Part shown: piece after piece, positions 1 through 25,651 of the stretch
Position numbering within the stretch: position 1 is the first letter of the stretch
How the letters are laid out: each line of letters opens with the position of its first letter
Origin: Rubrobacter xylanophilus
GTDB taxonomy: Bacteria; Actinomycetota; Rubrobacteria; Rubrobacterales; Rubrobacteraceae
NCBI RefSeq assembly: GCF_007164525.1
Contig: NZ_AP019791.1
Location: 2,219,501 to 2,283,500 of the forward strand
DNA: 64,000 nucleotides
Direction: 5' to 3'
Notes under the pieces: model-generated
The model's input: only the letters and a program-made list of their open reading frames with translations
Told to the model about the DNA's origin: nothing
Database searches by the model: none
Program-made: the position numbers and the translations under genes

Positions 1-476
1 GGCACGAAGCGAGCCTCAGGGAAGGGACCGAGCAGAGCCTTCAGGTACCCGGGTCCCACCGCTCCGGCGGGGAAGAGCTTGAGCGCCTCCACCCCGGAAT
101 TCAAAGCGCCCATCACCTCGCCGGGGGTGAGCACGCCGGGCAGCGCGGCGCACCCCGTACGGAGCATGGCCGCCGTCAGCTCCGGGTCGAAGCCGGGGCT
201 CACCAGGAAGGCGGCTCCGCTCGCGGCGGCCTCCTCCGCCTGTTCCGGAGCGGTCACCGTCCCGGCCCCCAGCAGGAAGTCCTCCCCGCGCCGCCGGGAG
301 AGCTCGCGGAGGGCCCGCCCGGCCTCCGGGGTGGTGTAGGCGACCTCGATGGCGCCCACCCCGCCCTCCAGGAGGGCCTCGGAGACCCCGACCGCATCCT
401 CCCACGAGCGCCCGCGCACCACCGCCACGAGCCCGAGACGCCCGAGCCGCTCCAGAATCTTTCCGCCGTCCGGCAT
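1..476 (-). CDS. eda: KDPG/KHG aldolase, C-terminus cut by window edge
   Basis: This is the N-terminal 158 residues of a 2-keto-3-deoxy-6-phosphogluconate (or 2-keto-4-hydroxyglutarate) aldolase; the family is about 210 residues and the rest lies outside the window. It would split KDPG into pyruvate and glyceraldehyde 3-phosphate in the cytoplasm. Visible blocks are VAVVRG (residues 17-22), EVAYTTP with the catalytic Glu, LLGAGTV, FLVSPGF, LPGVLTP and LKLFPA, whose Lys forms the Schiff base. The ATG at 476 follows a GGGAGG ribosome site and lies 15 bp after the KDG kinase stop, so the two are co-transcribed and form consecutive steps (KDG to KDPG to C3 products). Family identity is clear; exact substrate range is not. 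Confidence 0.9.
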   Translation of the reverse strand, partial: MPDGGKILERLGRLGLVAVVRGRSWEDAVGVSEALLEGGVGAIEVAYTTPEAGRALRELSRRRGEDFLLGAGTVTAPEQAEEAAASGAAFLVSPGFDPELTAAMLRTGCAALPGVLTPGEVMGALNSGVEALKLFPAGAVGPGYLKALLGPFPEARFV

Positions 477-491
477 GCCTCGCCTCCCTCG

Positions 492-1460
492 CTAACGCTC
501 CCGCCCCCGATGGCCGCGGAGGAGGGCGAACGCTTCCTCCGCGGCCGGCATGCTGGCCGCGTCCCCGGGGACGGCGACCGCGCACGCCCCGCAGGCGTTG
601 GCCAGCTCCAGGCACTCACCGGTCCCCCAGCCCCGCAGGAACCCGGAGAGGAAGCCCGCGACGAAGGCGTCCCCGGCCCCCACCGTATCCACGGCCTCCA
701 CCCTGTAGCCTTCCCTGCGGGCCACGCCCTCCCTGCCAGCGGCGAAGGCCCCGGAGGCGGAGTGCACTACCACGACGCCAGCCCCGAGCCGTCCGCGGGC
801 CCGCTCCACCGTTTCCGGATCGCTCCCGCCGAGCAGCAGCTCGGCCTCCTCGTCGGAGAGAAAGAGCAGGCCGACCCGCGGCAGGAGGGGGCCTATCACC
901 TCCCGCGGGTCCCGCCCCCCGAAGAGCCGCCAGCGGACGTTGGCGTCGAAGGAGAGGAGCACCCCCCGCCGCTCCGCCTCCTCCACGAGCCGCCGCACCA
1001 GCTCCTCGCAGCCCCCGGAGAGGGCCGGCGTGATCCCGGTGAGGTGCAGCACCCTCCCGGAGAGCAGAAGCTCCTCGTCCACCCTCCCGGGCTCCATCCG
1101 GCTCGCCGCCGACCCGGCCCGGTAGTAGTGGGCCCTGAGCCCTCCCGCCCGCCACTCCTTGAAGTACAGACCGGTCGGAGCCCCGGCATCCAGCACCACT
1201 CCCGAGACGTCCACCCCTTCGGCGCGCAGGAAACCGAGCACCTCCCGGCCGAACTCGTCGTCCCCGAGAGAGCCCGCCCACCCCACCCGGTGCCCGAGGC
1301 GGGCCAGCGCCACCGCAACGTTCAGCTCGGCGCCGCCCACCCGCTTGCGGAAGCCGGAAACGTGCCTGAGCGGTCCCCGTTCGACGGGGTCCATGACGAT
1401 GAGCGCCTCGCCGAGCGCCATCACCTCCGGCGCGCCGGTTGCCTCCAAGACCCTACGCAC
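492..1460 (-). CDS. kdgK: 2-keto-3-deoxygluconate kinase (PfkB family)
   Basis: A 322-residue PfkB/ribokinase-family sugar kinase that would phosphorylate 2-keto-3-deoxygluconate with ATP to give KDPG. The N-terminal block GGAELNVAVALARLG binds substrate, HYYRAGSAAS matches the YYR signature of KDG kinases, and DTVGAGDAF near residue 265 carries the anion hole and catalytic Asp. The GTG start at 1460 is preceded by GGAAGGGG; an internal ATG 13 codons in is a weaker alternative. It lies between an SDR gene and KDPG aldolase in one minus-strand operon. Context supports KDG rather than fructose or ribose as substrate; other PfkB substrates cannot be excluded. Confidence 0.87.
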   Translation of the reverse strand: MRRVLEATGAPEVMALGEALIVMDPVERGPLRHVSGFRKRVGGAELNVAVALARLGHRVGWAGSLGDDEFGREVLGFLRAEGVDVSGVVLDAGAPTGLYFKEWRAGGLRAHYYRAGSAASRMEPGRVDEELLLSGRVLHLTGITPALSGGCEELVRRLVEEAERRGVLLSFDANVRWRLFGGRDPREVIGPLLPRVGLLFLSDEEAELLLGGSDPETVERARGRLGAGVVVVHSASGAFAAGREGVARREGYRVEAVDTVGAGDAFVAGFLSGFLRGWGTGECLELANACGACAVAVPGDAASMPAAEEAFALLRGHRGRER

Positions 1461-1520
1461 CCCTTCCGGACGACATTGAAACGTCCCGTTCTCTTCCAGG
1501 GTAGCAGGCCCGGGAGGCTC

Positions 1521-2288
1521 TCACCGGGCGCTCATCCCCCCGTCGATGACCATGCAGGCGCCGACCACCGAGGCGGCCTCCTCGCTGGCCAGGTAGGCCG
1601 CCATCGCCGCAACCTCCTCCGGCCGCACAAAGCGCCCGTGCGGCTGGCGGGCCCGCATCTGCCGCCGCGCCTCCTCCGGGTCCGCATACCCGGCGGTGAT
1701 CTTCTCTATCCAGGGGGTTTCGGTGGTGCCGGGGGCTATGGCGTTAACGCGCACGCCCTCCTGTACGTGGTCTATGGCCGCGGCCCGGGTGAGGGAGAAC
1801 ACCGCCCCCTTGGCCGCGCTGTAGACGGCGCGCTGGGGCACCCCGACGAGCGCCGCGTTGGAGCAGATGTTTATGACGGACCCTCCTCCGGAGTCCCTCA
1901 TGGCAGGGATGGCGTACTTCATCCCGAGGAAGGTGCCCCGCACGCACACGTCCATGACCCGCTCGAAGTCCTCCTCGGAGGTCTCGGGGGTCGTGGCGGC
2001 GACGCCCACGCCGGCGTTGTTGACCATGACGTCGAGCCCGCCCCACTCCTCCACGGCCCGCCGCACCAGCGCCGCGACCTCCTTCGCCACCGTCACGTCG
2101 GCCCGCTGGGCGAGCGCCCTGGCCGGAGGGAGGGGCTCCGGGGGCCGCCGGCTGCGGTAGCCGAGGACCACCCGCGCTCCTTCCTCCAGAAACCTGCGGG
2201 CTATGGCGAGGCCTATCCCGGAGGCGGCCCCCGTCACGACCGCGCGCAGGCCCTCCAGACGCCCCCCTCCGACCCGGCCTCCGGTCAC
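1521..2288 (-). CDS. SDR-family dehydrogenase of the keto-deoxy-acid operon
   Basis: A 255-residue classical short-chain dehydrogenase/reductase. It has the Rossmann motif TGAASGIG, the NNAG motif, catalytic Ser in the NICSNAALVG region and the YSAAK (YxxxK) pair, and ends with the typical GACMVIDGG block. The GTG start overlaps the MFS stop as GTGA and follows GGGAGGAG, so the genes are translationally coupled. With KDG kinase, KDPG aldolase and a sugar-acid type transporter as neighbours, it probably oxidises a sugar lactone, uronate or keto-deoxy acid, in the manner of KduD or aldose dehydrogenases. The sequence alone does not fix the substrate. Confidence 0.85.
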   Translation of the reverse strand: MTGGRVGGGRLEGLRAVVTGAASGIGLAIARRFLEEGARVVLGYRSRRPPEPLPPARALAQRADVTVAKEVAALVRRAVEEWGGLDVMVNNAGVGVAATTPETSEEDFERVMDVCVRGTFLGMKYAIPAMRDSGGGSVINICSNAALVGVPQRAVYSAAKGAVFSLTRAAAIDHVQEGVRVNAIAPGTTETPWIEKITAGYADPEEARRQMRARQPHGRFVRPEEVAAMAAYLASEEAASVVGACMVIDGGMSAR

Positions 2289-3640
2289 GCGCTCCTCCCG
2301 TGCACGGGATCGAGCTCCGCTATGTCGAGGTCCTTGCCCTCGGCGGCGAAGTAGAAGGCGACGAAGGAGATGAGGGCGAGCAGGATCATGAACCCGGCCG
2401 CGAGCCACCACGCGTCTCCCGTGATGCCGACGAGCGCCGCGAAGATGAGCGGCGTGAAGCCGGCCAGCGCGGCCCCCAGCTCGCGCGAGGCGGCGAAGCC
2501 CGTGTAGCGCACCCGCGCGCCGAACAGCTCGGAGTAGAAGGCGCCCTGCACCGCGATCATCGGGGCCCACCCGAGCGCGGTCGCGACGATCAGGGCCAGC
2601 CAGATCAGGGCCGGCACCCCCGTGTTGATGAGCATGAAGAACGGGAAGGCGAACGCGGCCGAGAACACGACGCTGAAGATGTTGATCGGACGCCGCCCGA
2701 TGCGGTCGGAGAGCGCACCGTAGACGGGCTGCAGCAGGATCACGACGATCCCGTAGAGCACGACCCCGCCCAGCGCGACGCTCCGGGAGAGGCCGAGCTG
2801 GCCGGTCAGGTAGGAGACGGTGTAGGTCGCGTAGAAGTACGCCAGCGCGGTGTCGCAGATGTGCGCCCCGATCCCGATGAGGAAGTTGCGCGGATACCGC
2901 CGCAGAGCCTCCAGGACGGGCATGCGCACGGTCTGCCTGGCGCTCTCCATCCTCCGGAACACCGGCGACTCCTCGACCCGCAGCCTCACGTAGAGCGCCA
3001 CCGCGATGAGGACGAACCCGAGGAGGAACGGAACCCGCCAGCCCCACGAGAACAGCTGCTCGTCGGGCAGAAGCCCCACGAGCAGAAACATGAGCGTCCC
3101 GCTCACCAGCCCGACCTGTACCCCCATCTGCGAGAAGGAGCAGTAGAAGCCGCGCCTGCCCTGCGGCGCGTGCTCCGCGAGCAGGGTGGAGGCCCCTCCG
3201 AACTCCGCCCCGGCACCGAGCCCCTGACACATACGCAGCAGCGTCAACAGCACCGGCGCCCACACGCCGATCGCCTCGTAGGTCGGCAGCAACCCGATGA
3301 GCCCGGTCGAGAGCCCCATGAGCAGCGTGGTGACGATGAGCGTCTCCCGCCGGCCGATCCTGTCCCCCATGTGCCCGAAGATGAAGCCCCCAAGCGGCCG
3401 CACGAGAAACGCAACCCCGAAGGTGGCAAAGGCCGCCATGGTCCCCGCAACATCAGAGAACCCCGGGAAGAAGAGCTGCCCGAACACCAGCGCCGCCGCC
3501 GTCCCGTAGATGAAGAAGTCATACCACTCGAGCGCCGTCCCCACCAGCGCCCCGAAGACCACCCGACGAAGAGTGGAACCCTCGCCGACGGCCTTCGCCT
3601 CGGCAGCGAGACCACTGCGCCCCTCAGCCCCCGCAGACAT
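2285..3640 (-). CDS. MFS transporter, metabolite:H+ symporter type
   Basis: A 451-residue major facilitator transporter with 12 predicted membrane spans. N-terminal LEWYDFFIYGTAAAL and the loop GHMGDRIGRRETLI are hallmarks of the metabolite:H+ symporter group (KgtP, ShiA and ProP relatives), which import carboxylates, sugar acids or betaines. ALSDRIGRRPINIF repeats the loop in the second half. The ATG at 3640 follows a strong AGGAGGAGG site. It is the first gene of the operon that continues into SDR, KDG kinase and KDPG aldolase, so a hexonate, uronate or keto-deoxy acid is the likely cargo. An inverted-repeat operator lies about 40 bp upstream. Confidence 0.85.
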   Translation of the reverse strand: MSAGAEGRSGLAAEAKAVGEGSTLRRVVFGALVGTALEWYDFFIYGTAAALVFGQLFFPGFSDVAGTMAAFATFGVAFLVRPLGGFIFGHMGDRIGRRETLIVTTLLMGLSTGLIGLLPTYEAIGVWAPVLLTLLRMCQGLGAGAEFGGASTLLAEHAPQGRRGFYCSFSQMGVQVGLVSGTLMFLLVGLLPDEQLFSWGWRVPFLLGFVLIAVALYVRLRVEESPVFRRMESARQTVRMPVLEALRRYPRNFLIGIGAHICDTALAYFYATYTVSYLTGQLGLSRSVALGGVVLYGIVVILLQPVYGALSDRIGRRPINIFSVVFSAAFAFPFFMLINTGVPALIWLALIVATALGWAPMIAVQGAFYSELFGARVRYTGFAASRELGAALAGFTPLIFAALVGITGDAWWLAAGFMILLALISFVAFYFAAEGKDLDIAELDPVHGRSA

Positions 3641-3677
3641 CTCTCGACCTCCTCCTTTCCTCCCTGCCGCATAAATA

Positions 3678-3694
3678 TAGTACTTAGTACACTA
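3678..3694. promoter_or_regulatory. inverted-repeat operator upstream of the sugar-acid operon
   Basis: In an AT-rich stretch otherwise foreign to this GC-rich segment, TAGTACTTAGTACACTA contains nested dyads: outer arms TAGT/ACTA and inner arms GTAC-TTA-GTAC. The shape resembles TNGTNNNACNA-like sites of FadR-type GntR regulators, which often control hexuronate operons. On the minus strand TATATT next to the dyad could be the -10 box. No regulator gene is visible in the window, so assignment to GntR is inference. Confidence 0.5.
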
Positions 3695-3712
3695 ATATAG
3701 CCGAAAGGGGAA

Positions 3713-3732
3713 CCCCCGGTCAACACCGGGGG
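3713..3732 (-). terminator. stem-loop after lysA
   Basis: CCCCCGGT and ACCGGGGG form a perfect 8-bp GC stem with a four-base loop, 6 bp past the lysA stop on the minus strand. The following RNA (UUCCCCUUU) is only moderately U-rich. It separates lysA from the operator of the downstream transporter operon. Confidence 0.6.
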
Positions 3733-3738
3733 CGGTTT

Positions 3739-4989
<1,251 letters not shown>

Positions 4990-5105
4990 GAGCCTCTACC
5001 TCCTTTTCCCCCGTCTCGCACCGCCCCTCTCAACGGGACGGCCCACCTCCATGGTAATATTTCTGGCCGGCGAACGAAGACCGGACCTTAGGGGGACTAT
5101 ACCCT

Positions 5106-6278
5106 GTGAGGAAAACAGACGCGACCCCTCTCCTGCTCAACCCGGTGCTCGAGCGGCAGGGAGAGTACCCGCTGCTGCGCCTCGACGAGCGGCGCGAGCG
5201 GCTGAAAGAGCAGGGCGTCCGGCTCTTCGACTTCGGCGCCGGCGACCCCCGGGAGCCCACGGACCCCGGGATCCGGCAGGCGCTCATCGAGGCGGTCCCC
5301 GAGGTCAGCCAGTACCCCAGCGCCTCCGGCACCCGTGCGCTGCGCGAGGCCTTCTGCGGCTGGATGGAGCGGCGACACGGGGTGGAGCTGGACCCCGACG
5401 CCGAGGTGCTCCCGGCCTCCGGCTCCAAGGAGGCCATCTTCCACGCCCACCTGCCTTTTCTGCACCACACACACGAGCGGCGGGGCGTGGCCTACGGCAC
5501 CCCGGGATACCCCGTCTACGAGCGCGGGGCGCTCTTCGCCGGAGGGGAGGCGCTGCCGGTGAGGCTCAGGAGGGAGGACGGCTTCCTGCTCCCGCTCGAG
5601 GCGGTCGACCCGGAGAGGACCCGCATCCTGTGGATCAACTACCCCCACAACCCCACCGGGGCCCGGGCGCCGCGCTCCTACCTGGAGGAGGTCGCGGCCT
5701 TCTGCGAGGAGCACGACATCCTGCTCTTCTCGGACGAGTGCTACAACGAGATCTACTCCGGAGATCCCCCGCCCTCCGTGTTGGAGTTCCGCCGCAAGCG
5801 CACGCTCGCCTTCTGCTCCCTCTCCAAGCGCAGCGGGATGACCGGCTACCGCTCGGCGATGATGGCCGGGGACGCCGAGCTCATCTCCGCCCTCAGGAAG
5901 CTGCGTCCCTCGGTGGGGGTGGCCTCCCCCGCCTTCATCCAGGCCGCCGCCGCGGCCGCCTGGTCCGACGACGCGCACGTGGAGGAGCGCCGGCGCATCT
6001 TCGGCAGAAAACGCGAGCTCTTCGTGGAGTTCTTCCGGCGGGCGGGGCTGGACTTCCTGCCCACCGACGCCACCTTCTACCTCTGGGTCGCCGTCCCGGG
6101 CGGCGACGACGAGGCCTACGCCCTCCGGCTGCTGGAGGAGGGCATCGTCGTGGCCCCGGGGCGGGCGTTCGGTCCGGGGGGTGAGGGGTACATCCGCGTG
6201 GCGCTCGTCCCCTCCCTGGAGGAGTGCGAGGAAGCCATAGCGCGCTGGGAGGCCCTGGCCGCCGGGCAGCCCTGCTAA
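5106..6278 (+). CDS. dapC: class I/II aminotransferase, likely N-succinyl-diaminopimelate aminotransferase
   Basis: A 390-residue PLP aminotransferase. It shows NYPHNPTGA, FSDECYNEIY and SLSKRSGMTGYR, where the Lys forms the aldimine, and a C-terminal Arg in GYIRVALVPS. The GTG start at 5106 follows AGGGGG in the divergent region with lysA. It lies 45 bp before dapD and is read with dapD and dapE, which makes N-succinyl-2-amino-6-ketopimelate to N-succinyl-LL-DAP the natural reaction. Sequence alone could also suit another aspartate-type aminotransferase, so the specific name rests on context. Confidence 0.8.
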   Translation: MRKTDATPLLLNPVLERQGEYPLLRLDERRERLKEQGVRLFDFGAGDPREPTDPGIRQALIEAVPEVSQYPSASGTRALREAFCGWMERRHGVELDPDAEVLPASGSKEAIFHAHLPFLHHTHERRGVAYGTPGYPVYERGALFAGGEALPVRLRREDGFLLPLEAVDPERTRILWINYPHNPTGARAPRSYLEEVAAFCEEHDILLFSDECYNEIYSGDPPPSVLEFRRKRTLAFCSLSKRSGMTGYRSAMMAGDAELISALRKLRPSVGVASPAFIQAAAAAAWSDDAHVEERRRIFGRKRELFVEFFRRAGLDFLPTDATFYLWVAVPGGDDEAYALRLLEEGIVVAPGRAFGPGGEGYIRVALVPSLEECEEAIARWEALAAGQPC

Positions 6279-6323: not shown

Positions 6324-7130
6324 ATGCAAGAGCTCATACGGGAGGCCTTCGAGAACAGGGAGCTGCTAGAGAGCGAAGAGCACCGCTCGGCCGTCTTGGA
6401 GACGATAGAAGCCCTGGACAAAGGCAGGCTCCGCGTCGCCGAGAAAAAGAACGGCGAGTGGCGCTCCAACGCCTGGGTGATGCAGGCCATAAACCTCTAC
6501 TTCGTCCTCGCCGAGATGAAGACCTTCGAGGTAGGCCCCTTCGAGTTCCACGACAAGATCCCCATAAAAAGAAACCTCGCCGCAGCGGGCGTACGCGTCG
6601 TCCCCCCCGGCACCATCCGCTACGGGGCCTTCGCCGAGCCGGGGGTCGTCCTCATGCCCGGCTACATAAACATCGGGGCCTGGGTGGGGAGCGGGACGAT
6701 GGTCGACACCTGGGCCACCGTCGGCTCAGGCGCCCAGATCGGACGCAACGTCCACCTCTCCGGCGGGGTGGGCATCGGCGGGGTGCTGGAGCCACCCGGC
6801 GCGATGCCCGTCGTCGTCGAGGACGGGGCGTTCATCGGATCTCGCGCCATCGTCGTCGAGGGGGTGCGCGTCGGGGAGGAGGCGGTGCTGGGTGCGAACG
6901 TGGTGCTCACGGCCTCCACCCCGATCATCGACGTGACCGGCGAGGAGGAGGTCGTCTACCGCGGGCGCGTCCCCGCCCGCTCCGTCGTCGTCGCCGGGAC
7001 CCGCACCAAGGAGTTCCCCGCCGGCTCCTACCAGCTGCAGGCCGCGCTCATCATCGGCAGGCGCCGGGAGTCCACCGACCGCAAGACCTCGCTCAACCAG
7101 GCGCTGCGCGAGTTCGGGGTGCCCTCTTGA
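6324..7130 (+). CDS. dapD: tetrahydrodipicolinate N-succinyltransferase
   Basis: A 268-residue left-handed beta-helix acyltransferase that uses succinyl-CoA to succinylate tetrahydrodipicolinate. The N-terminal helical part contains the IPIKRN segment, followed by hexapeptide repeats (GVVLMPGYINIGAWVGSGT, VGSGAQIGRNVHLSGGVGIG, ALIGSRAIVVEG-type coils) and the conserved GGVLEPP block. Length and order fit the Gram-negative-type DapD. The ATG at 6324 is 45 bp after the aminotransferase, and the stop overlaps the dapE start. Confidence 0.92.
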   Translation: MQELIREAFENRELLESEEHRSAVLETIEALDKGRLRVAEKKNGEWRSNAWVMQAINLYFVLAEMKTFEVGPFEFHDKIPIKRNLAAAGVRVVPPGTIRYGAFAEPGVVLMPGYINIGAWVGSGTMVDTWATVGSGAQIGRNVHLSGGVGIGGVLEPPGAMPVVVEDGAFIGSRAIVVEGVRVGEEAVLGANVVLTASTPIIDVTGEEEVVYRGRVPARSVVVAGTRTKEFPAGSYQLQAALIIGRRRESTDRKTSLNQALREFGVPS

Positions 7131-8203
7131 GGGAGAGGCTGCTCGAGGCGCTGCTCTTCTTCCTCGAGCGCCCGAGCGTGACCGGCGCCGAGAAGCGCCT
7201 GTGCGACGACCTGGAGGAGCGCCTGAGGGGGCTCTCGGGCTGGGAGGTGCGGCGCACCGGCAACAACCTCGCCGTCCGCCGCACCTCCCGCGACTTCTCG
7301 CGCCCCCTCCTCCTGTTCGCCGGGCACCTGGACACCGTGCCGGAGCCGGAGGGCGGTATCCCGGTGCGGGTGGAGGGAGATGAGGTCTACGGCCGCGGGG
7401 CCTCGGACATGAAGGCCGGCAACGCGGTGATGCTCGCCCTCATAGAAGATTTCGACTGGTCCGCCTCGTGGGCCGAGCCCCTCTTCGTCTTCTACGAGCG
7501 GGAAGAGGGGCCGCACGAGGAGAACGGCCTGGAGGCCGTTTTCGAGGAGATGCCGTGGGTGCTGGAGGCGGAGCTCGCGCTCGTGCTCGAGCCCACCGCC
7601 GGGGCTATCGAAGCCGGGTGCGCGGGGACGGCGCAGGTGGAGGTGACCTTCCACGGAAAGGCCGCCCACGCCGCCCGCCCCTGGCAGGGGGAGAACGCGA
7701 TCTCCAAGGCCGGACGCTTCCTCCAGGCGCTGCACGAGAGGAAGCCGGAGGAGGTCGTCGTGGAGGGCCTCACCTTCTACGACGTCCTCACCCCCACCAT
7801 GGCCCGCGGAGGGAGCGCCAAGAACGTCGTGCCCGCCTCCTTCTGGATCAACGTGAACCACCGCTTCCCTCCAGGAAGGGGTATCGAGCACGTCCGGGAG
7901 ACCTTCGAGGCGCTCCTCGGAGGGGAGGCATCCTTCGAGATCGCAGACTATGCCCCGAGCGGCCCCGTAGACCTCCGCAACCCCCTCTTGGAGCGCCTCC
8001 TCGCCACCGGCGTCGAGGTCCGTCCCAAGCAGGCCTGGACCGACGTGGCCCGCCTCGCCGAGCGCGGGGTTGCGGCGGTCAACTACGGCCCCGGGCTGCC
8101 CTCCCAGGCCCACCAGGACGACGAGCACGCCGAGATACCGCTGCTCGAGGAGTGCTACCGGCGCCTGGAGGGCTTTCTCAGCGCCAGCCGGACCGCCACG
8201 TAG
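7127..8203 (+). CDS. dapE: succinyl-diaminopimelate desuccinylase
   Basis: A 358-residue M20 metallopeptidase-family enzyme that hydrolyses N-succinyl-LL-DAP. Metal and catalytic residues are in AGHLDTVPE, GRGASDMKAGN, YEREEGPHEENG and the C-terminal HQDDEHAE; the dimerisation domain includes GKAAHAARPWQGENAI. The TTG start overlaps the dapD stop as TTGA, giving translational coupling; an in-frame upstream extension has no coding character. The last 49 bp overlap a small convergent minus-strand gene. Confidence 0.88.
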   Translation: MRERLLEALLFFLERPSVTGAEKRLCDDLEERLRGLSGWEVRRTGNNLAVRRTSRDFSRPLLLFAGHLDTVPEPEGGIPVRVEGDEVYGRGASDMKAGNAVMLALIEDFDWSASWAEPLFVFYEREEGPHEENGLEAVFEEMPWVLEAELALVLEPTAGAIEAGCAGTAQVEVTFHGKAAHAARPWQGENAISKAGRFLQALHERKPEEVVVEGLTFYDVLTPTMARGGSAKNVVPASFWINVNHRFPPGRGIEHVRETFEALLGGEASFEIADYAPSGPVDLRNPLLERLLATGVEVRPKQAWTDVARLAERGVAAVNYGPGLPSQAHQDDEHAEIPLLEECYRRLEGFLSASRTAT

Positions 8204-8394
8204 ACCACGAGCCCCAGCAGGGGCAAGGACAGCAGAGAGAGTAGGCCAGCCCGGTCAGGGCCGTCCTTGCCCAACCCAATACGGATGCCCTCGTTCAGCT
8301 CCTCCAGCAGCCGGCTGAGGCGCTCGACCTCCACCTTCAGTTCCTCGAAACTCTCGCGGAGCTCGCGCGCCGCCTCACGCTCCTTACCGCCCAC
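8155..8394 (-). CDS. small coiled-coil/membrane protein, unknown
   Basis: A 79-residue ORF with a GTG start. Residues 1-35 are charged and heptad-like (ELRESFEELKVEVERL, LLEELNEG), then comes one hydrophobic span (LLSLLSLPLLGLVVYVAVRL) and a basic tail. It overlaps the end of dapE by 49 bp and the upstream small membrane ORF by 11 bp, as in a string of small minus-strand genes. I do not recognise a family. It may belong to the tail of the bacteriocin-type island. Confidence 0.45.
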   Translation of the reverse strand: MGGKEREAARELRESFEELKVEVERLSRLLEELNEGIRIGLGKDGPDRAGLLSLLSLPLLGLVVYVAVRLALRKPSRRR

Positions 8395-8775
8395 CCTGGC
8401 TCTCCCTTCCTTGCCCGCTCTCGATCCGCAGCCGCCGGCGATCCCTCATCGCCCATACGAGCAACCACGTCACGCAAGCAGCGTACACCACCATCGCCCA
8501 GATGAACCATCCGTGCTCCTGCGAGAGCCAGAAGTGGAGAGCAAAGACGGCGAACCCGGCCACCCACGACACCCCTGAGATGCGGCGCAGAAGCTCGCCG
8601 GAGGCCATGCCGTGCCGGCACAGAGAGAGCACCCCAGAGAGCCCGTCCCCCCGAGCACCATGCAGAGCACCGAAAGTTCTAGGAGTAGTGGCTCATGGAC
8701 GTGTAGCAACAGGAAGAGCACCACAACCAGCAGCAGGATTTGGAAGAGGGACCGCCCTTCACCCCGACCGGCCAT
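8384..8775 (-). pseudogene. small multi-pass membrane gene split by a frameshift
   Basis: Two overlapping frames together read as one four-span membrane protein of about 130 residues. The first, from 8775, begins MAGRGEGRSLFQILLLVVV and loses membrane character after CMVLGG. The second, ending at 8384, carries ISGVSWVAGFAVFALHFW and WFIWAMVVYAACVTWLLVW. The switch fits a one-base change in the C6 run at 8647-8652. Alternatively the second frame is an independent 82-residue gene starting at 8632. No family recognised. Confidence 0.4.
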
Positions 8776-8846: not shown

Positions 8847-9071
8847 TCAGACCAAGCCTGGCACAACGATCGATGCGAGAGCAACGGCGAAGCAGACCCA
8901 TACGAAGTATTTGAAGATCCCTCCCCTCTCTTCTGCCCCAAAAAGATGAGAACCATTGACAGCGCAAAGGCGATCTGCGACAGGGCAGGCCAATACTCGC
9001 CTTCGAACGAAAAGTACAGGGCACCGATGACAAAGATAATCCCGGAAAACCCCTACCAACCGCCTTCTCAT
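8847..9071 (-). pseudogene. frameshifted paralogue of the 74-residue small membrane protein
   Basis: This 225-bp stretch has exactly the length of the gene at 10039-10263 and is homologous to it, but only when read in two frames. The start (MRRRLVG) and the end (GAEERGGIFKYF through VVPGLV) are in one frame; the middle (FVIGALYFSFEGEYWPAL, SQIAFALSMVLIFLG) is in another and matches VGALFCLLNGYYWLFL and SQIAFAAGLVLIFFG of the intact copy. Two opposite single-base indels, near GGGGTTTT at the front and TTTTTGGGG behind, therefore cancel. The continuous ORF remains open but its middle is scrambled, so it is probably non-functional. Confidence 0.65.
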
Positions 9072-9090
9072 GAGGGGAAACGTCAGCCTT

Positions 9091-9472
9091 ATAAGCTCAC
9101 GCAAACTGCGAGATCACCGCTGCCAGCACTCCTGTCCCTAGAGACACCCAAAACACAACGGCCAGAATACCTCCCTTTCTTTCCCCCCCAGCGGCTATAC
9201 ACCATAGCGCCACAGCGAAACCAAGACTGGAGAGAGAAAACCAGTAAGATACAGTGAACACACCTACAACGGCCGCGATGAGGAACCCCACCGACGCTGA
9301 GATCGCCCGCCGGTTCGTGGGGGTGGATTGTCGTCTGTTTCCCATGAAAGTATTATCTCACCCGCAAGGATTCCGGCAACAACGCCTTATGCCGACCGGG
9401 CATCCGACCAACGCACACGACAAACACACGCCGCAAGCCCATTTAGCGGGAGTGGCGACACACTCCGCGCAC
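9091..9472. repeat. direct repeat copy A (about 382 bp)
   Basis: Nearly identical to 10282-10663 (I found one difference, at about 9256), offset 1191 bp. It covers the 82-residue membrane gene and the last third of the cysteine-rich gene. Beyond 9472 the two copies remain alignable but diverged, to about 9600. Weak similarity also continues on the other side through the 74-residue gene. Confidence 0.9.
9097..9345 (-). CDS. 82-residue two-span membrane protein, copy A (candidate immunity protein)
   Basis: An 82-residue protein with a charged N-terminus (MGNRRQSTPTNRRA) and two or three hydrophobic spans (VGFLIAAVVGVFTVSYWF, LGFAVALWCIAAG, GILAVVFWVSLGTGVLAAVI). It is identical in translation to the gene at 10288-10536. 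It starts 12 bp after the cysteine-rich gene stop, so the two are coupled. Small hydrophobic proteins directly behind a bacteriocin-like gene are often immunity proteins; this role is inference from position only. Confidence 0.6.
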   Translation of the reverse strand: MGNRRQSTPTNRRAISASVGFLIAAVVGVFTVSYWFSLSSLGFAVALWCIAAGGERKGGILAVVFWVSLGTGVLAAVISQFA

Positions 9473-9780
9473 GACCTAGCGCAACCCACGCAGGCGGAAG
9501 CAACTGTGGCTACGCAGATCCAACTCCCCCTGCAGCATCCACATCCGCGGGGCTGGGTGTTAGAAGTAGCTCCGCGATAGAGGCAACGACGCTTCGCTGC
9601 CGACCGTCCACGCTCTCGGTCTCCTTCCAAACTCTTCACCAGACACACATCCGAGGAGCGTGGCTTCAGATCGGCAGGTCCCGATTGGCCAGTCGGTTTC
9701 GTAGTAGACGATGTTTTATCCTCGGAGATAGTCCAAGAGACGGCGGTCAAGACTGTACCGTTCTCAAGCGTGTGGCGCAC
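9358..9780 (-). pseudogene. N-terminally truncated cysteine-rich proprotein, copy 1b
   Basis: The last 140 codons of a gene homologous to 10549-11559. It lacks the DUF393 domain and the Tat-like segment; the frame opens after a TAG just upstream and GTG at 9780 is only a formal start. The middle part (RHTLENGTVLTAVSW) aligns with RYTYTDGNTVTSVSW of the full copy. The tail keeps all 15 cysteines, and its last 40 residues are identical to the full copy. It is probably the 3' part left by the tandem duplication. If expressed from elsewhere it could still encode the tail, but no export signal remains. Confidence 0.6.
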
Positions 9781-9987
9781 CGCGAACGTTCCCTTTGTCA
9801 GAAGTTCCGAGCCAGCCTAAAGGCTGCTCACATCTGGGCTGTTGGCAGCTGAACTCAAAGCCTTCCTCCGGTCCGCGACGGCCAAGATCACCCCGACCGA
9901 GGCCGAGAAGCCCAGTTGAGCGACAGCCAATACAGCAGGCCAACGAGCACACTCTAGTGCATCGATGCACGGCCCTTGCGCTCCGGC

Positions 9988-10036
9988 TTAACAAGCCCTG
10001 GAATAACACCGCCTTATGCCGAATGGCCACTCGACG
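9988..10036 (-). pseudogene. remnant of a third cysteine-rich tail
   Basis: Just past the 74-residue gene, the minus strand reads GIRRCYSRAC then TAA, clearly related to the GIRRCCRNPCG ends of the neighbouring genes. Only about 15 codons are recognisable. The following 200 bp to 9780 hold no frame I can support. Confidence 0.45.
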
Positions 10037-10038
10037 CC

Positions 10039-10263
10039 TCAGATTGAGGCTGCTACGGCGCTCGCCAAGATACCGACGATGAAGCAGGCTGACGTGAGAT
10101 AGTCGAGAGCACCCCCTTTCTCTTGTGCCCCAAAGAAGATCAGGACCAGACCAGCCGCGAAAGCGATTTGCGAGAGGAAGAGCCAGTAATAGCCGTTGAG
10201 CAAACAGAAGAGGGCGCCAACGCCGCAACCGATCCCCAAGATCCCCGGTAACAGCTTTCTCAT
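10039..10263 (-). CDS. 74-residue membrane protein, intact copy (candidate immunity or accessory protein)
   Basis: A 74-residue protein with three hydrophobic stretches (ILGIGCGVGALFCLL, YYWLFLSQIAFAAGLVLIFF, ACFIVGILASAVAAS). It follows the 82-residue gene by 24 bp and completes a three-gene unit: cysteine-rich proprotein, 82-residue protein, 74-residue protein. A frameshifted paralogue occupies the same place in the second unit at 8847-9071. No family recognised; immunity or export help is inferred from position. Confidence 0.6.
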   Translation of the reverse strand: MRKLLPGILGIGCGVGALFCLLNGYYWLFLSQIAFAAGLVLIFFGAQEKGGALDYLTSACFIVGILASAVAASI

Positions 10264-10281
10264 GAGGGGGACGCCAACCTT

Positions 10282-10663
10282 ATAAGCTCACGCAAACTGC
10301 GAGATCACCGCTGCCAGCACTCCTGTCCCTAGAGACACCCAAAACACAACGGCCAGAATACCTCCCTTTCTTTCCCCCCCAGCGGCTATACACCATAGCG
10401 CCACAGCGAAACCAAGACTGGAGAGAGAAAACCAGTAAGATACAGTGAACACGCCTACAACGGCCGCGATGAGGAACCCCACCGACGCTGAGATCGCCCG
10501 CCGGTTCGTGGGGGTGGATTGTCGTCTGTTTCCCATGAAAGTATTATCTCACCCGCAAGGATTCCGGCAACAACGCCTTATGCCGACCGGGCATCCGACC
10601 AACGCACACGACAAACACACGCCGCAAGCCCATTTAGCGGGAGTGGCGACACACTCCGCGCAC
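10282..10663. repeat. direct repeat copy B (about 382 bp)
   Basis: Partner of 9091-9472, offset 1191 bp and nearly identical. It covers the 82-residue gene and the 3' end of the full-length cysteine-rich gene. The high identity next to diverged flanks suggests recent duplication or gene conversion. Confidence 0.9.
10288..10536 (-). CDS. 82-residue two-span membrane protein, copy B (candidate immunity protein)
   Basis: Same translation as the copy at 9097-9345. It starts 12 bp after the stop of the intact cysteine-rich proprotein gene and is followed after 24 bp by the 74-residue membrane gene, so all three are probably on one transcript from the GGTATGA element upstream. The perfect conservation between copies may reflect gene conversion rather than selection. 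Confidence 0.62.
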   Translation of the reverse strand: MGNRRQSTPTNRRAISASVGFLIAAVVGVFTVSYWFSLSSLGFAVALWCIAAGGERKGGILAVVFWVSLGTGVLAAVISQFA

Positions 10664-11559
10664 TGCTTGGCGCAACTCACACAGGCGGAACCGACTGTGG
10701 CTACGCAGCCCCAACTCCACCTGCAGCATCCACATCCGCGCTCAAGTTGACTGTTAGAAGCCGCTCCTGCCGCGGCAACGACGCTTCGCTGCCGGCCGTT
10801 TACGCTTGTGGCCTTGAGAACGTAGGCCTCCTCCGGGATGACCTCTATGCGCATGGCCTGCGATCTGTAATTGCCGATTGCTCGCGCGGGCAGGAAATAG
10901 ATAAGCAACTGGCTGCCTACGACCCAGGAGACCGAGGTCACGGTGTTGCCATCGGTGTAGGTATAACGGGCGCCTACTATTCGGTCCGCGGCAGGAGGGC
11001 TCTCCGGCCAGACGTTCTTCACGTCCTTACTGGCAGTAGCCCTGGTTATGGCCTCCCGAAGATCTTCTCCTTTCAACGGCTCGGACGAAACCACCTTTTT
11101 GCGGTTTAAGGGATGCACCCATGCTGCAGCGTCGGCCATCCTGGCGAAGACTTCCGTGCCGGAGAGAACGGACACGGCGAGCGTCACGCCTCCCAAGCCC
11201 TTCAGGAAACGGGCACGACTGAAGCCGGGCCTGGCCTGGGTGGAAATCCCTTCAGGTTCCGTGTTCGCACCCAGCGCCTTCATGATCCGCCAGGTGCCAC
11301 GAATCCCCAGCCTCCGACTCAACGCCACTCCCATCCGCACACCCGTCCAGGCCTTCACGTGGCCGTTCTCCACCTCGATCAGCGTCGGCGCCCAAGGTGC
11401 ATCCTTGCCCAACGCCTGCTCCCGCCAGTGCTCGACCTGCGGGTCGTAAAGGCTTCTGACCTCCAGCCTCTCTCCGACCGCCTCCTCGATCCTCCGCGCC
11501 AGAGCGCTGCACGCCCCACATCCGGCGTCGTAGCCCAGAATGAGCCGCCTGCCCTTCAT
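10549..11559 (-). CDS. cysteine-rich proprotein 1: DUF393 domain, Tat-like segment, 15-Cys tail
   Basis: A 336-residue protein in four parts. Residues 1-97 are a DCC/DUF393 thioredoxin-like domain with C14-G-A-C17 and a PWAPTLIEV block. Residues 114-121 read SRARFLKG, a Tat-like motif followed by a hydrophobic stretch (VTLAVSVLSG). Residues 135-270 are a variable middle with RYTYTDGNTVTSVSW. Residues 276-335 are a tail with 15 cysteines, several as CxxC. The plan recalls halocin C8-type proproteins, in which a Cys-rich C-terminus is released after Tat export; that comparison is from family knowledge, not a search. The ATG follows an AG-rich ribosome site and the shared 33-bp element lies 85 bp upstream. 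Two small membrane genes follow. Confidence 0.75.
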   Translation of the reverse strand: MKGRRLILGYDAGCGACSALARRIEEAVGERLEVRSLYDPQVEHWREQALGKDAPWAPTLIEVENGHVKAWTGVRMGVALSRRLGIRGTWRIMKALGANTEPEGISTQARPGFSRARFLKGLGGVTLAVSVLSGTEVFARMADAAAWVHPLNRKKVVSSEPLKGEDLREAITRATASKDVKNVWPESPPAADRIVGARYTYTDGNTVTSVSWVVGSQLLIYFLPARAIGNYRSQAMRIEVIPEEAYVLKATSVNGRQRSVVAAAGAASNSQLERGCGCCRWSWGCVATVGSACVSCAKQCAECVATPAKWACGVCLSCALVGCPVGIRRCCRNPCG

Positions 11560-11644
11560 TCTCTGCTCCCCCTATGCTCCTCTCTTCCGCATCCTGTACG
11601 GAGAGCACCTTAGAGCAGGAGCTTCACGGGCACATCATCCTCGA

Positions 11645-11677
11645 GGTATGAATTTCGGTATGAATTTTTCTCATACC
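11645..11677 (-). promoter_or_regulatory. 33-bp GGTATGA element, copy 1
   Basis: The plus strand reads GGTATGAATTTC then GGTATGAATTTTT then CTCATACC: two direct boxes 12 bp apart and one inverted box. The same 33 bp occur without change at 16176, 23051, 25609 and 30681, each 76-85 bp upstream of a DUF393 start. It is a likely activator-binding site or promoter for the cysteine-rich gene family. The regulator is unknown. Confidence 0.7.
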
Positions 11678-11692
11678 ATTCTCTAGAGTGCA

Positions 11693-14198: not shown

Positions 14199-14756
14199 TC
14201 AGCCGGCGAACCTCACCGAGATGTAGACGACGAAGGCCGCGAACGCCATGATGAGTGCCAGCACCAGCAGAAGTGCCAGCAGAATGCCGGCCACGATCGC
14301 CATACCGCGTACCACGGCCCTGCGCTGATCTACGGCCTCCTCCCACGTCTGCGGAGAGAAGAAGCCTGGGAATACGACCGTGGAGAGCACGATCCCGCCG
14401 AACCCCAGCGTAATGCCCAACGCGAACCTCTCGACGAAGGCCGGGATCTCCCACGGTATGGAAGGCGCCGCGGGCAACAACCACGCGGTCCACAGGTTGT
14501 AGGACACGACGAGCCCCAGGACCACTGTCGCCAAAGCTACCACTGCCAGCAGCGTACTGTGCCGTGCTGACCGGAGCGTCAGGTAGAACAGGCCGTCGCC
14601 CGTCAGGGCGCCCGCAAGAAACGGCAGCGCCCACGCGGCCGGGTCAAGTCCCACCAGCGCGAGCAAAGCACACAAGAGCGTCGCGCCGCCCAGGAAAACC
14701 AGACCCGCGTGATCCCAGAAGGTGGTTTCGTTCTCGGAAACGTGCCGCCGCTCCAC
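14199..14756 (-). CDS. 185-residue membrane protein, unknown
   Basis: A five- or six-span membrane protein (GLVFLGGATLLCALLALVG, LLAVVALATVVLGLVVSYNLW, FALGITLGFGGIVLSTVVF, MAIVAGILLALLLVLALIM). It is the next gene after cysteine-rich proprotein 2, about 240 bp downstream, and could be its immunity or export partner. No signature of a named family is visible. The right end of the IS701-like element lies 67 bp beyond its stop. Confidence 0.6.
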   Translation of the reverse strand: MERRHVSENETTFWDHAGLVFLGGATLLCALLALVGLDPAAWALPFLAGALTGDGLFYLTLRSARHSTLLAVVALATVVLGLVVSYNLWTAWLLPAAPSIPWEIPAFVERFALGITLGFGGIVLSTVVFPGFFSPQTWEEAVDQRRAVVRGMAIVAGILLALLLVLALIMAFAAFVVYISVRFAG

Positions 14757-14993: not shown

Positions 14994-16091
14994 CTAACAA
15001 TAATCACGATAGCAAGATACCCGTGCGATAGCCTGACAACCGCTTCTCTTATCAGGGTAGAGCCAGCAAGCTATTATGCCAGCAATTCCAAAATACCTGG
15101 CGATAAAGCATAGACCATTCACGCTGTAGAAGCAGAAGTTGAAGCGGTCACGCACGCATCTCCTGTAACCTCTACGGCAGGTACTCGCAAGAGAAGCCTC
15201 AGATCCACTCCGATAAGAAGCACCGGAGCTTTGCTGAGCGCTTTCTTCCAAGTACTGATCGACGCTCATCTTTTTGCCGTTTGACTTCACGACCGATTCG
15301 CCGACCAGACTCACCTTGCCAACGACTTGTCCCTTCTCATATGCAACTATCTCTACGTAGTTGCTATCAATGACTGTCTTATCGCTGTTTCTTGGGCTCA
15401 TGGTCGCATAACGACAATACTGGACCCTGCCTGTACGCAGATCAACAAAGAACAAAGCAATTGCCGCCAAGCCGACGGAATCGCGCGTGCGCGCAGCTAC
15501 ACTAGCCATGCCTGTCTCCTCGAGAATTCCAAACCTAGCACTTGCGAAATCTATAGGCTTGTTCAGGTCACTCAGGATGTTCTTGTACTGGTAGGAATTG
15601 TGAACTATCTTCGCAATCCGTTGCCGCTGAGCTAGTGTGCCAGTTGTTATGAGTTGCGCCTGTGCAGTTGAAGCCACACCCCTCAGTGAAAGCAAGGGGA
15701 AAACAACTGCCAATCCACCCATAGCCTTGAGGAATCGCCCGCGGCTGATCCCGCTGGCCTCCTCCATGGAAGCCACCCCGGTCGAGGACGTTCCGGCCTC
15801 CCCCAGCGCCTGCATGACGCGCCAGGTGGCAGTCGGCCCGAGCCGCCGGGCAAGGGCCGCGCCCATCCATACACCCGTCCAAGCCCTGGCCTTATCCCCC
15901 GAAACTTCGATCAGCGTCGGCGCCCACGGGGCATCCTTGCCCAACGCCTGCTCCCGCCAGTGCTCGACCTGCGGGTCGTGGAGGCTCCTTACCTCAAGCC
16001 TCTCTCCGACCGCCTCCTCTATGCGCTGCGCCAGAGCGCTGCATGCCCCACACCCTCCGTCGTAGCCCAGAACGAGACGCCTGCCCCTCAT
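14994..16091 (-). CDS. cysteine-rich proprotein 2: DUF393 domain, Tat-like segment, 8-Cys tail
   Basis: A 365-residue member of the family. Residues 1-97 are the DUF393 domain with C14-G-A-C17 and PWAPTLIEV. SRGRFLKAMGG and a hydrophobic run ending in STAQAQ resemble a Tat signal with an AxA cleavage site. The middle (about 140-300) is unlike the other copies. The tail, residues 305-365, has eight cysteines, an even number fit for four disulfides, and a hydrophobic core (FIARYFGIAGIIACW). The start is ATG at 16091 behind a purine-rich site; a longer frame to 16139 lacks support. The 33-bp element lies 84 bp upstream. Confidence 0.72.
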   Translation of the reverse strand: MRGRRLVLGYDGGCGACSALAQRIEEAVGERLEVRSLHDPQVEHWREQALGKDAPWAPTLIEVSGDKARAWTGVWMGAALARRLGPTATWRVMQALGEAGTSSTGVASMEEASGISRGRFLKAMGGLAVVFPLLSLRGVASTAQAQLITTGTLAQRQRIAKIVHNSYQYKNILSDLNKPIDFASARFGILEETGMASVAARTRDSVGLAAIALFFVDLRTGRVQYCRYATMSPRNSDKTVIDSNYVEIVAYEKGQVVGKVSLVGESVVKSNGKKMSVDQYLEESAQQSSGASYRSGSEASLASTCRRGYRRCVRDRFNFCFYSVNGLCFIARYFGIAGIIACWLYPDKRSGCQAIARVSCYRDYC

Positions 16092-16175
16092 GCTCTCTCC
16101 CCCTTCTCTCCTCTCTTCCGTATCCTGTACAGAGAGCACCTTAGAGCAGGAGCTTCACGGGCACATCATCCTTTT

Positions 16176-16208
16176 GGTATGAATTTCGGTATGAATTTTT
16201 CTCATACC
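16176..16208 (-). promoter_or_regulatory. 33-bp GGTATGA element, copy 2
   Basis: Same three-box element as at 11645, 84 bp upstream of cysteine-rich proprotein 2. Its distal flank differs from the other copies (CCACACACG), so the module has been joined to unrelated DNA here. Confidence 0.7.
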
Positions 16209-16319
16209 CCCACACACGCAAGGAGCCGGAACCCTTGCTCTTTCGGGTCTCGGCGCGGTTCTCCGCTTGTGAGTGTTTCGCCGCGTGGGCAGGAACCATG
16301 AGGCTGCCGGGGGTGGGAT

Positions 16320-17194
16320 CTACAAGAGTTTCAGGATGTCAGATCCCGTCGGGCGAAGATGAGCACCGAGAGTGATGCAGCTCAGCGAGTAAGCAGCCAG
16401 CACGAGCGCGGCCTGCTGAGGTTCTACGAGCTCTGCAGGGAGAGGACCGGACTGCGGAGCCAGAGCGCCCTGACCGAAAGCTGCCGCGAGGTCTGTAGAG
16501 TTGCGGCCGGGCAGCGCTCCAACAAAGGTCTCCAGGCGATCGTTGAAAGCCGCAAGGCCGGTCAGAAGGCCCTCCACGACGAGCAGGTAGACGAGCCCGA
16601 TCCCAACGCTCAGGGCGCCGCTGCGAAGCAAGACGGCGAGGAAGAGGCCCATGTAGGCGTTGGTGGCGAGGATCAGCCAGCCCGCCCCGAGCGCTTCGAG
16701 CCACCGGCCTGCAGATGGCCAGCTTACGGGGGCTCCTTCGGCGAGGGAGACCGAGTAGCTGCACAGGGCGCCGAGCACCAGGCCGGCGGCAGCGCTGACG
16801 AGCACTACGACCCCGACCGCGGTTACTTTGCCCGCGAGCACAGAGAGCCTACCCGGACGCTGCGTCAGGACGATCTTCAGGGTATCCCATCCGTATTCGC
16901 CGCTGACAGACAGCGCGCCGAAGATAAGGGCCACCCCTGCGCCGATCCCTCCGAACGACCGCAGGGTGGTGGCCAGCACGTTTCGCGGGTAGAGCTCGGC
17001 GACAGCGCCCTTTGCCGCGACCGGTGCATCCTGCCGGGGTCCCTGCGAGGAAGCCCCGCCGTCCAGCGCCGTGAGCAGCAGATATGTAAGCAGATACCCC
17101 AAAAGCACGATCGAGAGCCCGAAGATCGTCCAGAGGATCCACGTCGCCGGGCGCTTCCTGAGCTTGAGCAGCTCCGCCGCGAAGCTCGCGAGCA

Positions 17195-17195
<1 letters not shown>
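16320..17195 (-). CDS. ABC-2 type permease, second exporter of the circular bacteriocin locus
   Basis: A 291-residue membrane protein with about six spans, starting LLKLRKRPATWILW as in ABC-2 permeases that pair with a free ATPase. Its ATG overlaps the stop of the upstream ATPase as ATGA. Circular bacteriocin loci such as that of enterocin AS-48 carry an accessory ABC exporter that adds to immunity; the same role is inferred here. It is the last gene of the run that starts with the precursor at 22012. Confidence 0.8.
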
Positions 17196-18097
<902 letters not shown>

Positions 18098-18103
18098 GCA
18101 GGA

Positions 18104-18982
18104 TCATCCTTCCAAGAACATCACCACAGTCGATATTAAGAGGAGAGCGAAGCCGCCGGCGGCTATGAACCTCAACGTCTTCGAGTCCCGAAGTGGTCTG
18201 GCGACAAAGGCCGCGCAAGGTCCGCCAAAGAGAAACAGCAGCACGAGCCTGGGCTCGAAGAACGAGACGACGAGAGCGGAGATCGCGCTGGCGGGTATGG
18301 CCAGTACCAGCAGCTTCTCCGATGTGTCCAGATCTCTGTCTCTCCCCTCTCGCATCAAGTTCTCCTCCTCAGAACGCTTCCATAAGCACGGGCGTCCGTA
18401 CGCCTCAACGGGCGCAGCGCAGATTATCAGCAGAGCCGCGAGCGCCAGGCCGACCAGGCAGTCTCCGAACGGGTTCTCCACTGACTTGCCTTTTATCGTC
18501 GCCAGACACCAGTGCAAACCCTTGAAACCAACGACACCAGCGAACAGCAGCCCGGGTATCTCGAGGAGACCGTGAGGCAGGACCCCCGCGGTGATCTCCA
18601 CCGGAGACCAGCCCTCGTTCAGCTTTGCGCCGACTGCTATACCGGCAACCATCCCGTTGCCGAACAGGAGAAGCGCCGCGAGGACGCCGAAGGTGACAGG
18701 GCCGAGCGCCACCAGCGCGACCGCTACAAGGTTATTGCTGGCGATCCCGAGCGGGTCGCCTGGTGCCCCGAACTGGTCTGCGCCGATCGTCTCACCTCCA
18801 GAGAAGCCGTTCACAGCCATTACGCCTCCCGCAAGGGCACCCGCCAGATAGCAACTCAGACAGAGAGCGAAGAGGATCGCATTACGCCGCAGGAAACGTC
18901 CTGCCAGGCAGGCGCCGGGGTAGAACACTGACTCCAACGGCCCGGGGGTGGTCCTGCTCTGTGACGGGTCGCGCTCGCTCAA
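18104..18982 (-). CDS. SpoIIM/DUF95-family membrane protein of the circular bacteriocin locus
   Basis: A 292-residue protein with about seven spans. GVLPHGLLEIPGLLFAG is the characteristic motif of the SpoIIM/DUF95 family. Members of this family are a near-constant component of circular bacteriocin gene clusters (for example AS-48C and its relatives), where they are needed for maturation or secretion; this is family knowledge. The start overlaps the upstream ATPase stop (ATGA). Sporulation use is possible in principle, but the ABC genes and precursor on the same transcript argue for the bacteriocin role. Confidence 0.82.
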   Translation of the reverse strand: MSERDPSQSRTTPGPLESVFYPGACLAGRFLRRNAILFALCLSCYLAGALAGGVMAVNGFSGGETIGADQFGAPGDPLGIASNNLVAVALVALGPVTFGVLAALLLFGNGMVAGIAVGAKLNEGWSPVEITAGVLPHGLLEIPGLLFAGVVGFKGLHWCLATIKGKSVENPFGDCLVGLALAALLIICAAPVEAYGRPCLWKRSEEENLMREGRDRDLDTSEKLLVLAIPASAISALVVSFFEPRLVLLFLFGGPCAAFVARPLRDSKTLRFIAAGGFALLLISTVVMFLEG

Positions 18983-19701
18983 GATGAGCCACCGGATCGA
19001 TCCATCGCGTTCAGCACCGACCGCTCGAAACCGGTCGCGTCTCCGTCGGTCTCACGCTCAAGGATTATCCTCCCGTCGGATATTATGCTCACGCGGTCGC
19101 AGAGGCCGTGGGCAAGCTCTAGGATGTGGGTCGACAGGAAAACAGCTCTCCCAGCGTCTGCGAAGGAGCGCAGAAAGTCTTTCATGAACCGGGAGCTTGG
19201 CGGGTCGAACCCGGTCAGAGGTTCGTCCAGAACGAGCACGGTCGGCCCCTGCAGAAGTGCTCCGGCCACGGCCAGCTTCTGGCGCATACCGAACGAGTAC
19301 GAGCCGATCACGTGTTGCGCGCGATCTGCGAGGCCAAACCGCTTCAAACCATCCTCGACGGCCTTTATCTTCTCATCCTCCGGAAGACCCCAGAGATCGG
19401 CGGCGAACTCCAGATACTGCCGCCCGGTCAGGTACCTGTAGAGGAAGGGCGAATCCGGTACGAAGCCCACGGCCCTGCGTGTTCGCCGTGGAGCGTCTCG
19501 CACGTTCAGACCCGCGATGAACACCTCTCCGGAGTCCTGCGGGACCAGCCCGGCGATGATGCGCATGAGGGTGGTCTTGCCGGCACCGTTGGGGCCCAGC
19601 AGGCCGTGGATCTCCCCTGCCCGCACCCGGAGCGACACTCCATCCAATGCCCGCACCTCGCCGTAAGACTTGGTGACCCCGTCTAGCTCTATCGGAAACA
19701 C
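18979..19701 (-). CDS. ABC ATPase of the circular bacteriocin locus
   Basis: A 240-residue ATPase with Walker A GPNGAGKTT, signature YSFGMRQKLAVAG and Walker B VLVLDEPLTGFDP. It follows the 620-residue membrane protein by 3 bp and overlaps the SpoIIM-family gene by 4 bp. In known clusters an ATPase in this place (AS-48D, CirD) works with the large membrane protein in secretion and self-protection. Confidence 0.88.
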   Translation of the reverse strand: MFPIELDGVTKSYGEVRALDGVSLRVRAGEIHGLLGPNGAGKTTLMRIIAGLVPQDSGEVFIAGLNVRDAPRRTRRAVGFVPDSPFLYRYLTGRQYLEFAADLWGLPEDEKIKAVEDGLKRFGLADRAQHVIGSYSFGMRQKLAVAGALLQGPTVLVLDEPLTGFDPPSSRFMKDFLRSFADAGRAVFLSTHILELAHGLCDRVSIISDGRIILERETDGDATGFERSVLNAMDRSGGSS

Positions 19702-19704
19702 GGA

Positions 19705-21567: not shown

Positions 21568-21591
21568 GGGCCAATCTCTCTTCTCTGCGCT

Positions 21592-21633
21592 GCAGATCGG
21601 GGCTACGACCTAGCCGGCCGAGCCTCGATCTGC
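21592..21633 (-). promoter_or_regulatory. stem-loop between bacteriocin precursor and processing genes
   Basis: GCAGATCGGGGCT and AGCCTCGATCTGC pair over 12 of 13 positions around a 16-base loop, 32 bp past the precursor stop and 25 bp before the next start. There is no T tract. A processing or partial-termination structure here would keep precursor mRNA in excess over the membrane genes. Confidence 0.6.
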
Positions 21634-21664
21634 CGTGTACGCAATCGGCGACCCCGGATACCCC

Positions 21665-22974: not shown

Positions 22975-23026
22975 GCTCTCTCCCCCTTTGCTCTCTGCTC
23001 CCTGCAGGAAACACCTTAGAGCAAGA

Positions 23027-24325: not shown

Positions 24326-24345
24326 ACCTCCCGGACGCTCAGACT

Positions 24346-25641: not shown

Positions 25642-25651
25642 ATACTCTAGA

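Follow-up and report, generated by a model that had tools for sequence, protein, structure and literature searches.

HalC8, the halocin C8 peptide, is rich in cysteine. In haloarchaea it is made as the 76-aa C-terminal part of the precursor ProC8, which consists of HalI and HalC8 (PMC11509114). A second precedent is provided by the CDI/Rhs polymorphic toxins, in which a constant front carries a variable C-terminal tail, a cognate small gene lies downstream and modules are exchanged, headless orphan tail-immunity (CT/immunity) modules being known from CDI systems (PMC3150448). In Vibrio T6SS immunity gene arrays, new toxin-immunity units displace old toxins and the old immunity genes stay, with a homologous upstream region as the anchor (PMC5361080). 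Here we describe a Rubrobacteraceae locus, within a stretch of 64,000 nt (the window, whose positions serve as coordinates throughout), that is probably part of a polymorphic bacteriocin island with shuffled tails and cognate small membrane immunity proteins. Its precursors resemble halocin C8 in their putative Tat-type export, long precursor and C-terminal peptide of about 60–80 residues, but they have a thioredoxin-like head ahead of the Tat-like segment, and their tails are polymorphic and covary with a separate gene for a membrane protein; Pfam and NCBIfam scans of the precursors matched no curated halocin family, and the likeness is one of layout. With CDI/Rhs toxins the locus shares the conserved front and variable tail, a tail type that predicts the small gene, and orphan modules (unit B and lone partners, below), together with module exchange. 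However, the precursors are only about 290–420 aa long, contain no CdiA haemagglutinin/FHA or RHS repeat domains in Pfam/NCBIfam scans, have membrane proteins as partners, and bear tails that are often Cys-rich and probably released. As in the Vibrio arrays, immunity genes appear to have been left behind and a homologous upstream region may serve as an anchor, although the cargo here is a Tat-like exported precursor and we saw no secretion-system genes. Circular bacteriocins of the uberolysin/circularin family are encoded in the same island, but their precursor is of another type, making them neighbors of the units and not the same system. The logic of the locus is that of polymorphic toxins, a known kind of system; the tails and partners lie outside curated families, and a literature search with limited reach into subscription journals, and hence weak as evidence, returned no published description of these precursors.

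Proprotein A (11559–10549, minus strand, 336 aa) comprises a thioredoxin-like head with a CxxC motif (residues 1–95), a Tat-like segment, SRARFLKGLGG (residues 114–135), an alpha/beta middle domain (residues 155–255) and a 15-Cys tail (residues 274–336). The assignment of the head, about 95 residues long, comes from its predicted topology and from Foldseek matches to thioredoxin/PDI folds (probability 0.97, E = 0.01). By sequence it gave only weak matches to Thioredoxin_2 and DCC1-like families, the latter (PF04134; E = 0.043, 15.5 bits) falling under the family cutoff of 27.8, and a profile search found no solved structure. The Tat-like segment (SRxxFLK) comes after the head and has a single arginine in A (SRARFLK); a true twin-arginine motif, GRRTFLMS, is present in the outgroup precursor of genome G098, and Pfam TAT_signal matched locus L028 at E = 0.0023, below its cutoff. 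In the predicted structure of A, confidence is highest for the middle domain (pLDDT 80–92), and the AF2 model cannot be used for the tail (pLDDT about 22–36).

Among 397 sampled genomes of the phylum, we found the head in 15 Rubrobacteraceae genomes, with a patchy distribution in the family, and in one genome of another family (G098), whose precursor shares this layout and likewise has a tail that contains Cys. The window genome (G000) encodes four full precursors, A, D (14994–16139), F (24489–25532) and C (29429–30604), all on the minus strand, in addition to unit B and one head remnant. The heads of the window copies are 73–88% identical at the DNA level and their tails differ; at least five tail types occur across the family. 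The leader and head start of precursor C are 96.7% identical over 579 nt to those of the type E precursor of G003, a genome of a different genus, and shared leaders and heads are possible recombination anchors. One precursor (L041 6615–8423, genome G004) keeps the head and Tat-like segment and carries, in place of the tail, an M23 peptidase domain (Pfam match); a similar M23-tailed precursor in genome G063 (L113) was judged by eye. A leader of about 110 nt is repeated upstream of the heads at roughly 80–92% identity (11560–11690, 16100–16210, 22980–23100, 25540–25650 and 30610–30730), and it may act as a promoter and recombination anchor.

We next consider the genes that follow the precursors, scoring as a partner any gene on the same strand that encodes 55–200 aa with at least two hydrophobic segments and lies within 450 nt. 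A small multi-TM gene follows 18 of 20 same-head precursors across Rubrobacteraceae, compared with 1 of 83 other genes of the same loci, in a small and related locus set and with TM segments counted by a crude hydropathy rule. In the window, tail D is followed by a 185-aa membrane protein (14199–14756) and tail C by one of 131 aa (28979–29374), both on the minus strand. The remaining 2 of the 20 have no partner under the rule, and precursor F lacks a small multi-TM partner by it; an alpha/beta-hydrolase-like frame follows F (about 23900–24489, minus strand) and also a truncated G003 precursor (L034 reverse strand 6808–7638). Tail type predicts partner type: 8 locus pairs are alike in both, a number reached in 0 of 20,000 permutations, and at the level of sequence, tail and partner covary. 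Scans against Pfam and NCBIfam returned no above-cutoff family for the tails or for the 82-, 74-, 72-, 142-, 185- and 131-residue proteins, and neither tails nor partners matched a known bacteriocin or immunity family. That the partners are instead the second peptides of two-peptide bacteriocins might be proposed from their small size, hydrophobicity and close linkage, and the 115-residue circular bacteriocin precursor of the same island is of similar size. We regard this as very unlikely, given that the partners vary in length between 72 and 185 residues, have as many as 6 or 7 predicted membrane segments and show no obvious leader; retention of partners without a tail (see below) fits protection better.

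For tail A, the candidate immunity protein is the 82-aa membrane protein encoded next to it (10536–10288, minus strand, 3 predicted helices). Within the family, 82-like genes (E < 1e-10) were found only directly downstream of an A-type tail, twice in the window genome and also in G002 (a Rubrobacter MAG) and G032 (a Rubrobacteraceae MAG); matches elsewhere had E values of 0.01–1, many inside long ORFs, and were treated as noise. G001, from the same genus and with no detectable tail, has a decayed 82-like gene (E = 1e-15) and a tail remnant (recognized by eye) at the syntenic site, where about 0.7 kb separates the flanking genes. A fifth, more divergent tail (G036) has in the partner position an unrelated-looking 74-residue 3-TM protein that is not recognizably homologous to the 82-residue protein. 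The window's own 74-aa membrane protein (10263–10039, minus strand) is a distant homolog of the 82-residue protein (26% identity, E = 0.005), and its gene is absent at G032 and from the 295 nt available at G002. The initial annotation had suggested checking whether both small genes always accompany this tail type; the exclusive association was borne out for 82-like genes, and does not extend to the 74-residue gene or to the divergent G036 tail. This family association points to the 82-residue protein as the likeliest immunity protein for tail A, a reading we hold with reasonable confidence. The 74-residue protein is probably, with lower confidence, a divergent relative that serves as a second or displaced immunity gene.

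The same gene order recurs in unit B (about 9880–8847, minus strand), which is headless and frameshifted. It begins with a decayed middle domain (9880–9610) interrupted by an in-frame TAG and frameshifts, and continues with a 140-aa ORF (9780–9358) that ends in an intact 63-residue, 15-Cys tail, a second copy of the 82-aa gene (9345–9097) encoding an identical protein with one synonymous DNA change, and a second 74-aa gene (9060–8847) broken by a frameshift, all on the minus strand. We thus confirmed the initial annotation in finding the order proprotein, 82, 74 twice, far beyond chance, with the 82-residue protein unchanged and the 74-residue gene of unit B damaged. Its near-identical core, given there as 382 bp, measures 386 bp, and its statement that proprotein B has lost its front applies to the head and Tat-like segment, the decayed middle still running to about 9880.

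The core (9472–9087 versus 10663–10278, minus strand) extends from about the midpoint of the tail through the whole 82-aa gene, and its sole mismatch is synonymous (10453/9262, GGC/GGT). Its edges are sharp, the flanks being 54–91% identical between A and B, and a genome-wide search found only these two copies in the 3.02-Mb genome. To place unit B, we aligned the DNA of A, B and the two closest relatives, G002 and G032. Upstream of about 9620, unit B is mostly 82–98% identical to G002 and 33–52% to A, whereas from the linker GTCGGCAGCGAAGCGTCGTTGCC (about 9608) onward it is A-like (75–91%); in the 74-residue gene, A and B are 54–68% identical. By this alignment, unit B is a chimera of a G002-type middle and an A-type cassette of tail, 82- and 74-residue genes. 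Tail B is complete, with 63 residues and all 15 Cys; outside the core it differs from A by 6 replacement and 3 silent changes, and inside the core the tail DNA is as identical as the 82-residue gene, for which dS is 0.015 (one synonymous change). The sharp edges, the equally identical tail and the G002-like middle together indicate that, as read from these sequences, unit B is an old chimera that has recently exchanged DNA with unit A by gene conversion.

This bears directly on why the 82-residue protein is unchanged. The initial annotation took its preservation in a decaying unit as a sign of immunity, in line with a recent tandem duplication of which one copy decays and selection keeps the 82-residue protein. 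The protein is indeed identical in both units, but so are the silent sites, and so is the end of the tail; the flanks diverge abruptly to 54–91% and the middle of B comes from another lineage. Recent DNA exchange accounts for the identity without selection, and we give the duplication scenario very little credence. With silent sites undiverged between A and B, the identity of the 82-residue protein is no evidence of selection, and the argument from preservation fails. The immunity role remains the best-supported reading on account of the family association and not of this identity, and the locus offers a natural case of gene conversion, and not selection, leaving one gene unchanged within a decaying copy. 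Within the end of each tail, a promoter-like TTGCCG-16-GATAAT (consensus match only) closely precedes the 82-residue gene (10570–10543 and 9379–9352, minus strand) and could allow the two genes to be expressed on their own. Between the units lies a possible remnant of a third tail end, PFGIRRCYSRAC followed by a stop (10035–10005, minus strand), whose match is weak (81% over 31 nt, E = 0.003), and then a possible frameshifted 82-like remnant. Between unit B and a dapE-like gene are two small membrane-protein-like ORFs of 82 and 79 aa (8155–8775, minus strand), with no relatives in the fetched loci.

Evidence on partner function also comes from partners that have outlived their tails. Only G003 and G015 have type E tails, and in each case membrane genes of 72 and 170 residues come after the tail. 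No type E tail exists in the complete window genome, and both partner genes are still open there, as a 142-aa gene (12121–11693, minus strand, 78% identical to the G003/G015 partner) and a 72-aa gene (12475–12257, minus strand, 76–78%). G003 (L029) 1–6239 aligns with window 36677–30425 at 82% identity and 6935–7968 with window 12640–11597 at 83%, and the window has no counterpart of the type E middle and tail; this synteny identifies the 72- and 142-residue genes as the same genes that stand beside the type E tail. The retained partners are 83% identical, compared with 82% for flanking genes, and their dN/dS of 0.65–0.70 indicates weak constraint only. A remnant elsewhere in the window (22879–23187, minus strand) holds the 3' end of a 142-aa gene, the leader and the first 32 head codons. 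In G003, a truncated precursor without type B tail (C1) is accompanied by an intact type B partner (dN/dS 0.40), and a further type B-like partner (C3; 41% identity, E = 2e-23) also stands without tail B. Judged from these loci, partner genes persist intact after loss of their tail; under the displacement model of Kirchberger et al., immunity genes are expected to be retained in this way after toxin loss (PMC5361080).

The same observations weigh on the main alternative, in which the middle domain would confer immunity, like HalI of halocin C8, and the small membrane proteins would assist in exporting or processing the tail. The layout does recall ProC8, where a single Tat-exported precursor yields both the immunity protein, from its N-terminal part, and the peptide, from its C-terminal part (PMC11509114); the middle is also well predicted, and within the A group its type follows that of the tail. 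However, partners persist intact without precursor, middle or tail, where a dedicated helper would be useless, and unit B retains a complete tail ORF despite its broken middle; we consider this alternative unlikely.

Returning to cognate membrane immunity proteins, we propose the following model. Each precursor combines a thioredoxin-like head, which is constant, with a Tat-like export segment, a middle domain that varies and an exchangeable, usually Cys-rich C-terminal tail. By analogy with known families, we infer that it is exported by a Tat-type route, that disulfides form in the tail, possibly assisted by the head, and that the tail is cut off outside the cell and acts on the membranes or envelopes of competitors. 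The small multi-TM gene after each tail type would encode its cognate immunity protein, the 82-residue protein serving tail A, and the 74-residue gene is a divergent relative within the same immunity-like family, probably one that was displaced or that acts as a second immunity gene. On this reading, unit B is an older cassette, with a tail and immunity gene of the A type, that became fused to a G002-like middle through the conserved linker that encodes NGRQRSVV; it lost its head and decayed in its upstream part before conversion with A overwrote 386 bp (or the reverse). More tentatively, with the odds slightly against it, these precursors may form an undescribed bacteriocin class, Tat-exported and with a head of its own that aids tail disulfides, whose cassettes are shuffled between genomes by recombination at the shared leader/head and the linker, leaving orphan immunity genes in the manner of polymorphic toxins. 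If the model holds, large polymorphic toxins are not alone in their combinatorial logic: a fixed carrier, exchanged tails, and cognate and orphan immunity genes would also characterize small exported bacteriocin precursors in Rubrobacteraceae, and at least five tail-immunity pairs are at hand as candidates.

The units span about 8.2 to 33 kb of the window, in an island whose flanks are conserved in G001, G003 and G015. Within it lies a 115-residue circular bacteriocin precursor of the uberolysin/circularin family (21665–22012, minus strand; PF09221, E = 1.2e-11; closest solved structure NKR-5-3B, E = 5.6e-17), together with the SpoIIM-domain protein and ABC transporter genes of its operon (16320–21567, minus strand). 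This setting is relevant to the possibility that the precursors have a housekeeping or envelope-redox role, their Cys-rich tails being metal or redox modules and not antimicrobials. The thioredoxin/PDI-like fold of the head, its weak similarity to DCC1-like oxidoreductases and the 15 Cys of the tail would suit such a role; patchy presence, tail swapping, cassette decay, orphan partners and a bacteriocin neighbor would be unexpected for housekeeping genes, and we think it improbable. The circular bacteriocin operon is about 99% identical to those of G003 and G015, against 82% for the flanking genes (window 17419–21874 versus L029 8545–13001, 99.55% identity, in genomes assigned to different genera), a difference that points to recent horizontal transfer of the operon. 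Transposase-like genes, identified by eye, are scattered through the island.
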